Source of the DNA: Hirudo medicinalis
Lineage: Eukaryota > Annelida > Clitellata > Hirudinida > Hirudinidae
Reading direction: 5' to 3'
Length of the DNA stretch: 64,000 nucleotides
Assembly: GCA_011800805.1 (NCBI GenBank)
Contig: MPNW01000019.1
Location: 1-64,000, forward strand
A program made the position numbers and the translations under genes. The notes under the pieces were generated by a model. It had not been told where the DNA came from and did not search any database. It worked only from the letters and a program-made list of their open reading frames with translations. Of this stretch, positions 4,081 to 60,630 are shown piece by piece. Each line of letters opens with the position of its first letter. The stretch's first letter is position 1.

Positions 4081-4471
4081 ATGTTAATATAAAAGATAAA
4101 ATATTCATTTTAAATATATTAATGTTGATATTATTATTATCATTATTAATACTAAAATATTATTTTGGTGTGTTATTAATAATAACGGTTAATAAGAAGA
4201 TTGATAATTAATTGGCCATACATTCATAATATTCAAATATCTTTGTGCTTCATCAAACATTTGTTTACTTCCTTTTAATTCATTACAAAACTTTAATGGA
4301 CCTTCAACATTGCAAAGTCAATGTAGGATTTCTCGAATATTAATTATTAATAATTAATAATAATATTTATAATTAATACTTTATTAATACTTAATTTATT
4401 TATTAATAATTTATATAATTTATTAGTAATATTTTATAATTAATACTACTATTAAAAATCATTTGTTTTGT

Positions 4472-17050: not shown

Positions 17051-20000
17051 TTATTTTGCGATCTTCCTCTTTTTATTCTTTGGCTCAAACTTGAAACTCA
17101 TCAATGGGTCTGCTTGTTTCCTCTGAAAATAAAATGAAATTTTGCATAAGGAGTCGAGCCATGGAGAGATACAATTGCAAAGGCAGAATTTACCTTGTGT
17201 CTGAGGTGACCCTTTGAACTGAAGTTCTTTTTCGAACTATTCCAAGAATTGTCTCTCTTTATTGTACCAGGACGATATTTTGCACAACTTTGGAGGGAAG
17301 GTGGAACTATTGGAGACGACAAGTTAGTTAATAGTTGAAGATGATAAGTTAGTTGATGAAAAATGAAAAAGTTAGTTAACAATCTTCTCAATGACAAAAA
17401 ATAATATACATACCAAGGTAATCAGGAACATTCTTTAGGTGTGAGTGTATTTTCACAACTCTCAGTGTTTTGTCATGCTTTAATACTTGCAGGTCTCTTG
17501 GATTATCTTCAAAATAAGCCTTAAATAAAAAAAATTAGTTAATAACAAAGAATCAATCCATTATTTAATTAAAATAAGAAATCATTAACCCGTACACGAC
17601 AAAAATCTGGCACAATGCATAATTTATCAATTTGAATGTTAGGCTGAGACAGCAAATGTACAAGGTCTGATTTTTCATGCCAGTTGAATAAATTCTGACA
17701 GAATTCAGTACAACCTTGATTGCTCTTGGAAAAATTGCAATAGCAACAAGGAATTGTTGTTGCTGCAGTGATAGCAAGTAGTCCAGCATTTCATAAGTTA
17801 AATTTAATGATAGTAAAATAATGACTTTAGTTGGACTAAAATGTTCAAAGTATGATTTTTCAAGCCAGTTGAAAGCAAATCTGACAGAATTCAGTACAAC
17901 TTTGAATGTTCTTGGACAGATTGTGATGCAACATAAACAAGTTAGTTGCTATTTAAACAACTTTTGCCCAAAAATACCATTTTAATAAATGCAGAAAATG
18001 TGCAGGCTCTGATTTTTCATGTCAGTGAAGACAAAGTCTGACAGAATTCAGTACAACCTCGAATTTTCTTGGACAAGAAAAAATAGCAAGTAATAAAAAT
18101 AATAACCAGCTATAATTCGGTCCAGCTGTGCACATGCTTAAGTCAATCAAAAGCAGAATCTAAGCTTCTATTAAAACTGTACAAAGTTCAATTTTTCATG
18201 CTGCAACTATTTGCAGCAGAATATTGATATAAAATTGGAATTACATTTAAAACCATTGTGACATTTGCCACCCAATCAATTCTGTGATATTCACATTGAT
18301 ATTTATAACATTATCGCATCTTAAACACCGTTAATCGACTCCTTTAATCATTCAATTCACCTTGAGCTTCTTCGAGTTTAACATCTCCTCTTTAATTTCT
18401 TTCCTTCGAGCCTCCCTTATTATGTCTCTGGTGATTGACCTACGAGCTGTCTGTGAAATAAAGTTAATACATGACGTTGTTTTTAACGGCAACGTAATCA
18501 CTCACATCTGATCGGTATCTTAGAGACGAGGCCTCCTCCATGTCGAACTTGAAATTTGCAAGACCCTCGGCTGAAAAGAGTTACTGTTGCAATGCCGTGC
18601 CGAATGAAATCACGTGCGAAAGACTTACGATGACTATCTTTGAAAAACGATTCGACCTCGTTGAGGCGATCCATTTCCTTGCCACACACTAAACTCAATG
18701 CCATGCCCTTGCTATCTGCTCTAGCAGTTCTGTGAAAATGCATTAACATTCAATCTGCCCTCGCCAATGAGCATCACAAATGTTAAAACCAACCTCCCCA
18801 CTCTGTGAATGTACGACTCGACGGTCAACGGGAAATCAAAGTTTATAATCGTGGTGACGTTTCTGAAATCGATGCCTCGAGAAACTCCAGATTCGCTGTC
18901 CTTTATTAGGTTGAACCTAAATGTTGTCCCCCTTACTTACTTACTTCATCATATATTTACTTATATATCATATTTAACACCTCAACTCGATGTTTTATGA
19001 TAATCAAGTAATTAATCTCTCTACGTAAACATAAACAATCATACGTTTAAAAATTTGAGGAGAAATGAAACAAACTTTTTCTTTGCGAGTTGCTTCCCGG
19101 ATTTTGTGTTGCTCGTCATAAATTTCTCGTCCGCAGCAATGATGATGTCGTATCTGCCTTCATTGAATTTTCCAACAATGTTACACCTGGGGATAAAAAG
19201 AAAGCCTTGCAACCCAAAACTACTCAATATTAATAATCTAATTTATTAGAATAACCCCTTAATTCATTCAGCCTATCATAAGACTTACCTTGAGGCCACT
19301 GGGAGCTCAGAGTTCAAGACACAGGCTGGAATACTAAACTGCTCAAAGTACAATTTTAACCTGTTGTCCAACATTTAAGTTATTCAATTATCCATTTCTT
19401 CTCAAACCAAATGTATCAACATTCTCACTTGTAGCATCTGTCCACAGAATTAACAAATATGATCATTTTCCCATGCAACAAGTGCAATTTTAATAAGGCA
19501 TACAACACAAGAAACTTGTCATCTTCATCACTCCTGCATTTGAATATAAGGAAGGCATTGTATGTGTATTGAACAGAAATACCACTGAAGCAACAAACTG
19601 ACATGATTTTAAATTGTTTCAATCTGTCAGAAGAAGGCAACTGTGACTGTTCAAGCTTCAAAATAACCTAGAAATGATTTTGAAAAGCATGCATTTATAA
19701 ATGAATAAGGACAAACAAGAAGTACATAAATCTAAAAGCCCAAAAATTAATAAAAAACTTAATGTGACTATAAATGTAATAGAAATGTATCAACATACTG
19801 GATTATTTAAAACCATTGTCTTAAGAGCCTTTGCATCTTCAGATAATGTTGCTGACATCAAAATGGCTTGATATACCTCTGGAAGGTGCCTGAAATAACA
19901 AATGTCCTCTCTGACTCCACCTCAAAGAGTCATAAAATTCATGAAACCTTACAATAGCAATTCTTTCATGTCTTTTTCGTGACCAAACGAGAACAGAAGA

Positions 20001-22158
20001 TCTGCCTCGTCCACAGCAACCATTTCGACCGATGATTTCAGATCGATGTTCCCTGCCTTGATGTGAGCGAGTATCTTGCTCGGAGTTCCAACTATAATAT
20101 CCGGCTTCTCCATCAGCAAAGGTCTGCAAATATATTCATCACTTCAGATACTTAATGCAAATTAATGTTTTACAATGAAAGTAATAGTCAACAATTGTCT
20201 TAAATTCAAATTTCATATATTTTAAATTTTTCAGCAAACTAATCATGCTTTGAATTAAGACGAACGAAAGTCAAGAATAACATGAGCAAGTTGATGCAAA
20301 AGATGTACAAGGTCTGATTTTTCATGTTGTTTCACAGCAAATCCAACAGAATTCAGTACAACCTCAGTTGCTCTTCGACAAGTTGCCACGACAACAAAGA
20401 ATTATCTTTGCTGATTAATAACTTGTCCAAATTTAGTTTAAATGTGAGATAAAAAAATATAAAATGAACTTTAAATGTACAAAGTCTGATTTTTCAAGCC
20501 AGTTGAATATAAATCTGTCAGAATTCAGTACAACTTTGCTTTTTCTTGGGCAAATTGTGATCGCAACATAAAACATTAGTTTCTGGCTCAACAACTCTTG
20601 CCCAAGTTCTTTATTTTAATGCTACAAATGTGCAGGTTCTGATTTTTCGTGTCAGTGGAATCAAATTCTGACAGAATTCAGTACAACCTGGAATGTTCTT
20701 GGACATGCAAAAATAGCAAGTAATAATATTAATAACCAGCTACAGTTTGGTCCAGTTCTTCAAAAAGAATCAACACAATTCTTAATTATTTATAAACATA
20801 ATCCCTTCGAATGTAGAAGGTTTGATTTTTCATGCTGCAAATGTTTTGCAACATAATCGAGTTATCCTCAATTAATCTTGGGAATACATTGGAAAACAAT
20901 GACAAAGATGTCAATGCTTAAAGCAAAGTAATCCCATTAACAGATTAAATAAAATAACAAACCATGTAAAACATTTTACTTACATTAGATGGGTATTAGG
21001 GGTACAAAGTATTATTATTAATATTTACTATATCGTTTAAAATTACGTAAAAAAAACTGGAGCATCACTAACTTATGTGAATCCAAAGATGCCTGACCGC
21101 TCACATCCACAGATCTCACTTCCCGAGAACAACTCATGCACATCTCCTGCAGAATTATGTGAATTCATTATTAATGTTGCAAGAATTGAATCAAGATGTC
21201 TTACTCTGATGTTTCTATGAGCCTGGTTGCACAATTCCTTTGTTGGAGCCAATATTATGGCTTTGGTGCACTGTTCTTTTGCTGTCTGTGAATATTTTTT
21301 ATTGCCTTTAATTGCTTGAAAATTTAAATTAATAATCAAATTAAGTCAAGAACTGTTCAATTTGAATTGATAAAACCAAAATAATCAGGCATTTCCAAGT
21401 TGTGAATGTAATTACAAATCATAACTTCTGAGTGTATTTTATTTTGCAATAACTAAGCATAAATTTAATCGTGTCAGTACAAAAATAGTGTCACATCAAA
21501 ATTTTGATATATTTAATCACCCACTCTCCTTACATTCATTGAAAAATATAACATTCAAGCTATAAAGCTGGTCAGCCAATGCTTTTTCCATAATTTCAAT
21601 TTCATAACAAACCTGCTTGCTCTTTAGAATTTTCTGCACAATCGGAATGACATATGCACCAGTTTTTCCAGAACCGGTTCTTGCTCTCGCTAAGACGTCT
21701 TTGCCTTCTAACGCTAATGTTATGGCCTTGTCTTGAATTAAAGTAGGTTTAACCCATCCTAGCTTTGCAATTGCCTGATAAAGTTATATGACAATCTACT
21801 TTAATTTCATGTACTAAACACAGCATATGTTGTGAATACAGGTCTAATATTAACGAAAATGACAACCAAAGGCCCTGTCAAACAAAATCAGGCAGCCCAC
21901 GCTGAATCATGTTAGCACGTCTAGACCCGCAATTTATGTCGTCAACAGTAATTCCTTATTCTTTATTTGGATTTTTATTCCAATAAATTAGTGCACAATT
22001 TCGAAGCTTCGTAATGTCTCGCAAGACAGTTGTTGAAATGTTGAAATGTTTTCGATTGAAATCAAATTACATAGAAATAAGTCACACGAAACCTTCAAAA
22101 TTCTGTCATCTAAGCCCAAATCCTCGAACGAACCAACATCTTCTTGTTCCTCGTGCAT
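17051..22158 (-). CDS. DDX56: ATP-dependent RNA helicase DDX56 (DEAD box, nucleolar)
   Basis: DEAD-box helicase; the family is nucleolar and acts in assembly of the large ribosomal subunit. Seventeen exons, transcription order: 22093-22158, 21613-21774, 21205-21285, 21073-21146, 19953-20123, 19799-19889, 19603-19667, 19429-19533, 19289-19360, 19076-19186, 18794-18916, 18629-18729, 18506-18570, 18361-18450, 17414-17519, 17194-17306, 17051-17122. All phases agree, giving 555 aa (human about 547). Motifs in order: Q-motif region [12 protein letters not shown] at the start, Walker A ARTGSGKT (about 53-60), PTKEL, VDEAD (about 165-169), SAT, then GVSRGIDF and HRVGRTAR in the second RecA domain. 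The C terminus is basic (KNKKRKIAK). The segment [14 protein letters not shown], followed by [13 protein letters not shown], is specific to DDX56. The start ATG at 22158 is the only one in frame with the Q-motif exon. Most introns are 60-330 bases, but two of about 840 and 950 bases hold the snoRNA cassettes. Confidence 0.95.
17654..17785 (-). ncRNA. Box H/ACA snoRNA, cassette A unit 1
   Basis: Lies in DDX56 intron 14, sense strand. The 5' hairpin is closed by TGGA/TCCA and has an inner stem GCAACAA/TTGTTGC. H box AGAGCA at 17721-17726. The 3' hairpin has lower stem CAAGGT/ACCTTG and upper stem GTCAG/CTGGC. An ACA lies one base after the stem, with three bases to the end. The pocket strands are TGTACTGAATTCT and ATGAAAAATCAG. 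Length about 132 nt, normal for the class. Counterpart of cassette B unit 1 at 20301-20430. Confidence 0.85.
17839..17970 (-). ncRNA. Box H/ACA snoRNA, cassette A unit 2
   Basis: Same intron and strand. The 5' hairpin is closed by GGGCA/TGTCC. H box AGAACA at 17907-17912. The lower stem of the 3' hairpin is TTCAAAGT/ACTTTGAA (8 pairs), a compensatory change from unit 1, and the upper stem is GTCAG/CTGGC. ACA box in GAACATTT. Same pocket as unit 1. About 132 nt. Counterpart of 20473-20605. Confidence 0.85.
17996..18124 (-). ncRNA. Box H/ACA snoRNA, cassette A unit 3
   Basis: The 5' hairpin is closed by TGGAC/GTCCA. H box AGAAAA at 18064-18069. Upper stem GTCAG/CTGAC replaces a G-U with an A-U pair relative to unit 1. 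The lower stem is weaker (AGGT/GCCT). ACA box in GCACATTT. Pocket strands as in unit 1. About 129 nt. Counterpart of 20626-20754, with which it also shares the 5' half (AGCAAGTAATAA and ATAACCAGCTA on the plus strand). Confidence 0.8.
18175..18275 (-). ncRNA. Degenerate H/ACA-like unit, cassette A unit 4
   Basis: Retains the strong upper stem TGCTGCAA/TTGCAGCA, the ATGAAAAAT right pocket strand and a TACA 3' end, and matches 20809-20936. It lacks a clear H box and lower stem and is only about 101 nt. It is probably a decayed copy. Confidence 0.45.
20301..20430 (-). ncRNA. Box H/ACA snoRNA, cassette B unit 1
   Basis: Lies in DDX56 intron 4, sense strand. The 5' stem GACAAG/CTTGTC sits within TTGGACAAG. 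H box AGAGCA at 20369-20374. The lower 3' stem is TGAGGT/ACCTTG (two wobbles). The upper stem TGTTG/CAACA differs from cassette A unit 1 by paired substitutions that keep pairing. ACA box in GTACATCT. About 130 nt. Confidence 0.85.
20473..20605 (-). ncRNA. Box H/ACA snoRNA, cassette B unit 2
   Basis: The 5' hairpin is closed by the perfect 8-pair stem TTGGGCAA/TTGCCCAA. H box AGAAAA at 20541-20546. Lower 3' stem GCAAAGT/ACTTTGT. ACA box in GTACATTT. Pocket strands are the same as unit 1, but the upper stem has one mismatch (GACAG/CTGGC). About 133 nt. Confidence 0.85.
20626..20754 (-). ncRNA. Box H/ACA snoRNA, cassette B unit 3
   Basis: The 5' hairpin is closed by TGGAC/GTCCA. H box AGAACA at 20694-20699. 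Lower 3' stem CAGGT/ACCTG covaries with AAGGT/ACCTT of cassette A unit 1. Upper stem GTCAG/CTGAC. ACA box in GCACATTT. About 129 nt. Confidence 0.85.
20809..20936 (-). ncRNA. Box H/ACA snoRNA, cassette B unit 4 (divergent type)
   Basis: The 5' hairpin is closed by TGGGA/TCCCA with inner stem TGACA/TGTCA. H box AGATTA at 20873-20878. The 3' hairpin has upper stem TGTTGCAA/TTGCAGCA and lower stem GAGG/CCTT. ACA box in CTACATTC. The left pocket strand differs from units 1-3, so the target should differ, while the right strand ATGAAAAATCA is kept. About 128 nt. Confidence 0.75.
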
Positions 22159-59629: not shown

Positions 59630-60630
59630 CCTTGCTGGCTTTCAATTGGAGACGACTGCTGAACATCCAGTCATTGATGGCGTCCATGCAGTTTGAAATC
59701 CTGACAGCCATTCGATATGGTCTGGCAGGTAGTGATCATAGACCTGCGTGTCATCAGCGTACATATTGCATTGGAGTCCATGCGCCCGAAAGACGCTCTC
59801 AAGTTCAGACGTGTACATCATGAAAAGGTGTGGGCCCAGAACGGATCCTTGGGGGTACTCTGCATGTTATAGAGGTAGAGGACGATGCTAGTTCACCATA
59901 ACCGACCGAGAAGGAACGGTCGGCTAGGTACGACCGAAACCATGCAAGGGCATAACCCATGAAGCCGAACGACGTTTCTAGTTGTCCTAGAAAAATGCCA
60001 CGATCGCACGTGTCCAAAAGCTGCAGATAAGTCGAGAAGAACAAGCAGCGACATCTGACCGGCACCAGCGGCTCTTAGGAGATCCGACGACGCACGTAGA
60101 ACAGCAGTTTCGGTGGAATGATGTTGATGGTAGGCGGACTGATATCCAGGAAGGAGGTTATGAAGATTCGGATGACCCATAACCCTACCGAGCACGTTCC
60201 ATAGACTTTGAGAAGACAGAGAAATTGTTGTGGGTGCACTGGACTATCTATGCTAATGTAGGAGCTAGGAGCGGCAACTTCCCTTTTGTTCGTTCTAGTC
60301 CTAGTTGTGTGTTAGGTAGTGTGGATTCGTTGGCGAATAAAGTAGTGTCTTGGTTTAATCGACTAACTGCGAGTTACAACAGAAATTAGAGATTGGTTGG
60401 TAGGAACAAACACCGGATGGATCGAGGGTGGATTTCTTGATTAAATGAATGACATAGCATGATTTGAAGACTTCTTTTTTGAAGACTACTTTTCCGAGGA
60501 GGATTGACTTGCTGAAGACAAGAATTCTTTGCAAGAATAGCTGCTATGAGGGAGGACATTTTCTTGAGGAGCCAGGTTAGCATAGGGTTAAACAAGCACT
60601 ATTTGCTTGGAAGAGATTGAATCAGTTTCA
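59630..60630 (-). mobile_element. LINE reverse-transcriptase relic (CR1/L2-like)
   Basis: Antisense blocks in order from 60630 down: LIQSLPSK(stop)C, TWLLKKMSS, SYQPISNF, then a solo LTR (60226-60381), GYQSAYHQHHSTETAVL, LLVLLDLSAAF, FRSYLADRSFSV, and the catalytic YADDTQVYD (near 59750). Several frameshifts and an in-frame stop show it is dead. The block order is that of a reverse-transcriptase palm. Only part of ORF2 remains. Confidence 0.88.
60226..60381. mobile_element. Solo LTR (156 bp) with 5-bp target duplication
   Basis: Begins TGTTGTGG and ends TTACAACA, giving 6-bp terminal inverted repeats TGTTGT/ACAACA. It is flanked by GAAAT at 60221-60225 and again at 60382-60386. An AATAAA lies near 60338, as expected at the R/U5 part of an LTR. 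It interrupts the LINE between SYQPISNF and the next conserved block, so it landed after the LINE. It is very short for an LTR; a TRIM-type element is possible. Confidence 0.82.

Follow-up and report, generated by a model that had tools for sequence, protein, structure and literature searches.

Two introns of the DDX56 gene of the leech Hirudo medicinalis each carry a row of four units which, read from the sequence, are very likely intronic box H/ACA snoRNA genes, with 28S rRNA at CUUGAUUUUCAGUACGA as their likely target and a probable history of tandem duplication and block copying between the two introns. Box H/ACA snoRNAs are stable RNAs bound by dyskerin, NHP2, NOP10 and GAR1. The intronic cluster is real and probably functional, and the guiding of one rRNA modification is the most likely role of the four-unit rows.

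The host gene occupies positions 17051-22158, on the minus strand, of the window, by which we mean the whole 64,000-nt stretch of DNA that was analysed. DDX56 is a ribosome-assembly (large-subunit) helicase. Our splice model comprises 17 coding exons encoding 555 amino acids, with GT-AG borders at 16/16 introns, and takes its name from matches to named DDX56 proteins. Among the best 120 protein matches listed, the closest named one is from Helobdella robusta (64% identity), and DDX56-labelled proteins of molluscs and other animals lie at 54-60% (Ruditapes, for example, at 59%). Introns 4 (20124-21072, minus strand, 949 nt) and 14 (17520-18360, minus strand, 841 nt) are the only long ones, the remaining 14 of the 16 measuring 55-327 nt, and under this model the limits originally predicted for both are exact. 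A literature search found no paper on DDX56 as a snoRNA host.

Each long intron houses four units of about 130 nt on the sense strand of the gene, separated by gaps of 20-53 nt, so that the eight units of the original prediction are all present. A 37-nt 3' core occurs eight times in the two introns and a 75-nt core six times. Intron 4 contains units A1 (20809-20936; H box AGATTA at 20878-20873, ACA at 20814-20812), A2 (20626-20755; AGAACA at 20699-20694, ACA at 20631-20629), A3 (20473-20605; AGAAAA at 20546-20541, ACA at 20478-20476) and A4 (20301-20428; AGAGCA at 20374-20369, ACA at 20306-20304). Intron 14 contains units B1 (18175-18320), B2 (17996-18125; AGAAAA at 18069-18064, ACA at 18001-17999), B3 (17839-17972; AGAACA at 17912-17907, ACA at 17844-17842) and B4 (17654-17786; AGAGCA at 17726-17721, ACA at 17659-17657), and all eight lie on the minus strand. 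The six core units, A2-A4 and B2-B4, were recovered by a de novo descriptor, and A1 was assigned to the H/ACA class by its box and hairpin, its left guide being altered and its right guide retained. Unit B1 keeps its ACA (18180-18178) and the upper 3' stem; no ANANNA was found 48-80 nt before that ACA, and because it lacks an H box and has the longest branch in the unit tree, it looks decayed.

The succession of hairpin, ANANNA, hairpin and ACA within about 120-140 nt is thus found in seven of eight units, in six of the eight de novo. In those seven, the number of units for which a 5' hairpin, H box, 3' hairpin and ACA had been predicted, the boxes are in register: the H box lies 58-62 nt upstream of the ACA, and always 61-62 nt in the intact core units. 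The stem variants cited earlier all occur in the sequence. If an intronic cluster is taken as two or more sense-strand snoRNA genes sharing a single intron of a gene transcribed by Pol II, DDX56 introns 4 and 14 both qualify on the evidence of their sequence.

The descriptor used no sequence family; it called for two single hairpins with ANANNA between them and ACA after the second. On the sense strand of the two introns it returned A2, A3, A4, B2, B3 and B4 exactly, with energies between -22.4 and -33.9 kcal/mol. After shuffling (60 times per intron) the mean was 0.017 and 0.05 matches at -20 kcal/mol or better, with a maximum of one, and the antisense strand of intron 14 gave one match (-25.0). 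Over both strands of the whole window, in a scan that additionally demanded -7 for the 3' half, there were 24 matches at -18 or better, of which six were the core units; as the other 18 lay elsewhere, a single descriptor match proves little. For the matches outside the core units, inspection found neither a repeat nor a second line of evidence. Two neighbouring descriptor matches (-25.2 and -29.0) lie at 60319-60592 on the plus strand, without other support. Folding z scores ranged from -1.4 to -5.9 for whole units and from -1.36 to -5.43 for seven 5' hairpins folded singly. Run without guidance, RNAalifold gave the upper part of the 3' stem and no more, and there are weak spots in individual units: a mismatch in the upper stem of A3, a weak lower stem in B2, and a 3' half of A1 that folds differently in its minimum free energy (MFE) structure.

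Support of a different kind comes from paired changes in the stems. Across the 3' hairpins of all eight units, paralogs from one genome, 88.9% of the alignment cells pair, compared with 32-50% when slid. Two-sided changes affect nine cells, where shuffles have 3.6, and neither this count nor the covariation score was equalled in any of 500 shuffles (0/500 each), which bears out the covariation of the 3' stems that had been predicted and which box H/ACA snoRNAs should display. Two further measures of the same hairpins add no support: the number of pairs with a two-sided change (four) was reached by 128/500 shuffles, and the number of further pair types by 498/500. When a covariance model was made from these 3' hairpins, the eight scored 55-89 bits and the next match in the window 17.7 bits; as the eight match their own model by construction, this shows just that the window holds no ninth copy. 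With the descriptor, the covariation and the boxes in agreement, and seven of the eight units intact, the original reading of the units as H/ACA snoRNAs, sense to DDX56 and forming a cassette that two of its introns share, is supported.

While the 3' stems covary, the 3' pocket they enclose (UGUACUGAA / AAAUCAG) is nearly invariant. In the six core units all nine scored columns of the left pocket (UUGUACUGAA) are invariant and the right pocket (AAAUCAG) has an identity of 0.95, while the apical loop reaches 0.66 and the stems 0.64-0.83, in regions whose limits were the analyst's choice. The pocket is complementary to CUUGAUUUUCAGUACGA, a stretch conserved in 28S that lies within 1-3 bases of human Psi4269; the rRNA letters used here, those of this stretch included, are human. 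When 873 uridines of the human rRNAs were ranked, the CUUGAUUUUCAGUACGA site came top for five of the eight units (A4, A2, B4, B3 and B2) and second for A1, and was not among the matches of B1. Unit A3 does not have it as its best site because its mismatched upper stem fails the fold filter. For single units the same 28S score was reached by 4/150 and 1/150 shuffled rRNA sets, and joint scores of the paralog pairs were as high in 1/60, 3/60 and 0/60 shuffled sets (units 2, 3 and 4).

The bipartite pairing around the pocket amounts to 14 bp on human 28S, at 12-14 nt from the ACA, and target uridines usually lie 14-16 nt from the box. The usual 14-nt spacing would point to U4272 and the best energy to 4270; positions 4270 and 4271, at which pairing is best, are at 12-13 nt, and 4269 is at 11 nt. 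The run UUUU is placed at human 28S 4269-4272 by the numbering of the published U4390/U4393 substrate (PMC4092089). In a chicken study, 28S-3754 is assigned to the 3' hairpin of an ACA34 homolog and chicken 3875 is equated with human 4390 (PMC2653536), so that by constant offset chicken 3754 would correspond to human 4269. In MFE folds the pocket partly pairs with itself (CUGA/UCAG), a self-complementarity that follows from the near-palindromic target and may keep the pocket closed when no substrate is present.

For the 5' hairpins, a scan of the human rRNAs gave no target beyond chance, the joint best sites being reached by 24/60, 24/60 and 59/60 shuffles. The CUUGAUUUUCAGUACGA stretch is absent, at up to three mismatches, from the fragmentary rDNA of the leech's own genome, and scans of viral and genome collections with the 28S motif returned no match. 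Our searches of the assembly found no complete rRNA genes. Fragments of the leech's 28S rDNA (L017-L020) lie on contigs C521 and C710, and several of them begin near AAGGTAGC.

At gathering score, Rfam has no match in the whole window. Relaxing the threshold to E <= 10 on 17400-21200 gave three matches (SNORD59, SNORD56 and mir-553), all far under their cut-offs. The SNORD59-like match (20291-20226, minus strand) lies towards the 3' end of intron 4, outside the units, and scores 21 bits (gathering 45, E 0.82); it agrees over 11-13 nt at the guide element and has poor C and D' boxes. Since better SNORD59 copies exist elsewhere in the genome, we took it as probably a chance match. Beyond this chance-level C/D match, Rfam gave none for snoRNA families in the two introns. 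Identity with U17/snR30 was rejected on inspection, as the motifs of that RNA were not seen. In the 133-Mb assembly (1557 contigs), a search with the 22-base guide motif at up to three mismatches gave at least six matches and a search with the unit at least six core matches, all of them at the DDX56 locus, and within the reach of these searches a dispersed repeat was rejected on this ground. A search of the genome for SNORA57 (RF00191) found no match and is uninformative, as its control matched nowhere either. A literature search on leech and annelid snoRNAs found nothing on the subject.

The same genome contains a second putative cluster, in a FUBP-like KH gene (L037, 5588-5757 and 6799-7182; C693:91001-101000), with two C/D and three H/ACA RNAs. 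The two C/D RNAs, which score 39.9 and 35.2 bits against a gathering score of 45, are SNORD59-like. Two SNORA62/SNORA6-like H/ACA RNAs, at 52.8 and 44.5 bits (gathering 80), follow a later exon, together with a third copy recognised through the repeat alone; the spacings are 153 and 141 nt. Like the DDX56 units, then, these are tandem intronic H/ACA units, here at a spacing of 141-153 nt. Unlike them, they belong to known Rfam families (below gathering), lie in another host gene and, as far as we looked, have no copy in a second intron. This cluster lends independent support to tandem intronic H/ACA genes in this genome, and the two clusters together suggest that several snoRNAs per intron are ordinary in it.

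The original prediction held that each unit is nearest its counterpart in the other intron and that the whole row was copied as a block. By identity the first claim stands for unit 2 (A2-B2, 86%) and unit 3 (A3-B3, 82%), which stand out. For unit 1 it holds in the tree only, A1 and B1 being 58% identical and not mutual best, and for unit 4 in the 5' halves only, A4-B4 (74%) being tied with B3-B4 (74%). The tree joins A1+B1, A2+B2 and A3+B3 with supports of 99/98, 93/99 and 97/96, and leaves the pairing of A4 and B4 unsettled. Between the introns, the spacers 2-3 and 3-4 are alike (3/300 and 1/300 shuffles as high), spacer 1-2 is less clearly so (21/300), and the outer flanks show no resemblance (300/300 and 219/300). 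The spacing of units is similar in the two rows (172/153/183 and 185/157/179). That the rows instead grew independently in each intron, arriving at the same order by chance or through gene conversion, would accord with the unpaired unit 4, with A1 and B1 not being mutual best and with the unrelated outer flanks; it sits poorly with the three supported pairs, the two similar spacers and the similar unit spacing, and we consider it quite unlikely. Since unit 4 is not paired and just two of three spacers are clearly alike, a copy of the whole row is likely rather than demonstrated, and the likely history is that the row grew in tandem and was then copied as a block into the second intron.

Other readings concern the function of the units. 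If they were a decaying local tandem repeat or a mobile-element fragment that folds by chance and has no RNA function, one could understand the AT-rich tandem copies, the lack of an Rfam family and the clear degeneration of B1. The confinement of the genome matches to one locus, the stems that change in pairs around a constant pocket and the boxes in register are at odds with it, and we hold it to be very improbable. It is unlikely, though less so, that the units are H/ACA RNAs acting on snRNA or mRNA, or in the folding or processing of rRNA, instead of modifying 28S. The pairing on 28S allows more than one register, the vertebrate Psi is 1-3 nt from the best registers, the target scan covered rRNA only, and the 5' hairpins are without a target, all of which would suit such a role; the 14-bp bipartite pairing at 12-14 nt from the ACA, with 0-3/60 shuffled rRNA sets as high, argues for 28S as the target.

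In animals one snoRNA per intron predominates, according to one published account (PMC11028025), and intronic snoRNA gene clusters were reported in rice and then in Drosophila according to another (PMC2780460). The rice and Drosophila clusters resemble the DDX56 rows in placing several snoRNA genes, often isoforms, in one intron (PMC2780460). The DDX56 rows differ from them in host gene, lineage and RNA family, all new, and in having one four-unit row in two introns. A functional parallel is ACA34 (SNORA34; GGgACA44 in chicken), an H/ACA RNA whose 3' hairpin guides 28S Psi4269 (chicken 3754) (PMC2653536). The pairing of the DDX56 units fits 4270-4272 better than 4269, the host gene is another one, and the units number eight whereas ACA34 has one or two genes. 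No H/ACA family in Rfam matches 17400-21200 (a SNORA34 model may be absent from it), and the resemblance is one of function only. The Drosophila mfl/Nop60B gene is likewise a ribosome-biogenesis host of duplicated intronic snoRNA isoforms, but these are mostly C/D isoforms and one per intron (PMC1821038).

From these observations we infer a course of transcription, processing, dyskerin binding and modification, and a direction and mechanism of copying. The units would be transcribed within the DDX56 pre-mRNA, and each would emerge from its intron as an RNP of the H/ACA type, with dyskerin, NHP2, NOP10 and GAR1. The common 3' hairpin would pair with 28S CUUGAUUUUCAGUACGA and direct the pseudouridylation of one uridine of UUUU, the last of them (human 4272) if the usual 14-nt ACA spacing holds. 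The diverged 5' hairpins may be structural, or each may have a target peculiar to its unit. Tandem duplication would have given rise to the row of four, followed by the block copy to the second DDX56 intron and then by the decay of B1.

A more speculative proposal, to which we give little weight, is that the locus is a cassette driven by dosage, duplicated within the helicase gene, in which seven intact genes supply one 28S guide hairpin while their 5' hairpins diverge freely, and the output of helicase and guide is locked together, with a role as chaperone or in placing a Psi at 4272 conceivable. Were this so, the common hairpin may chaperone its 28S segment and place a pseudouridine, at the equivalent of 4272, that vertebrates lack. 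The DDX56 units would form a new snoRNA family, given the lack of an Rfam match, of a kind of gene and in an arrangement already known. They would add such a family, read from genomic sequence, for an annelid lineage, and the two rows would amount to a small natural experiment, with one guide in eight copies across two introns, of which one copy is decaying, and with a checkable target site.
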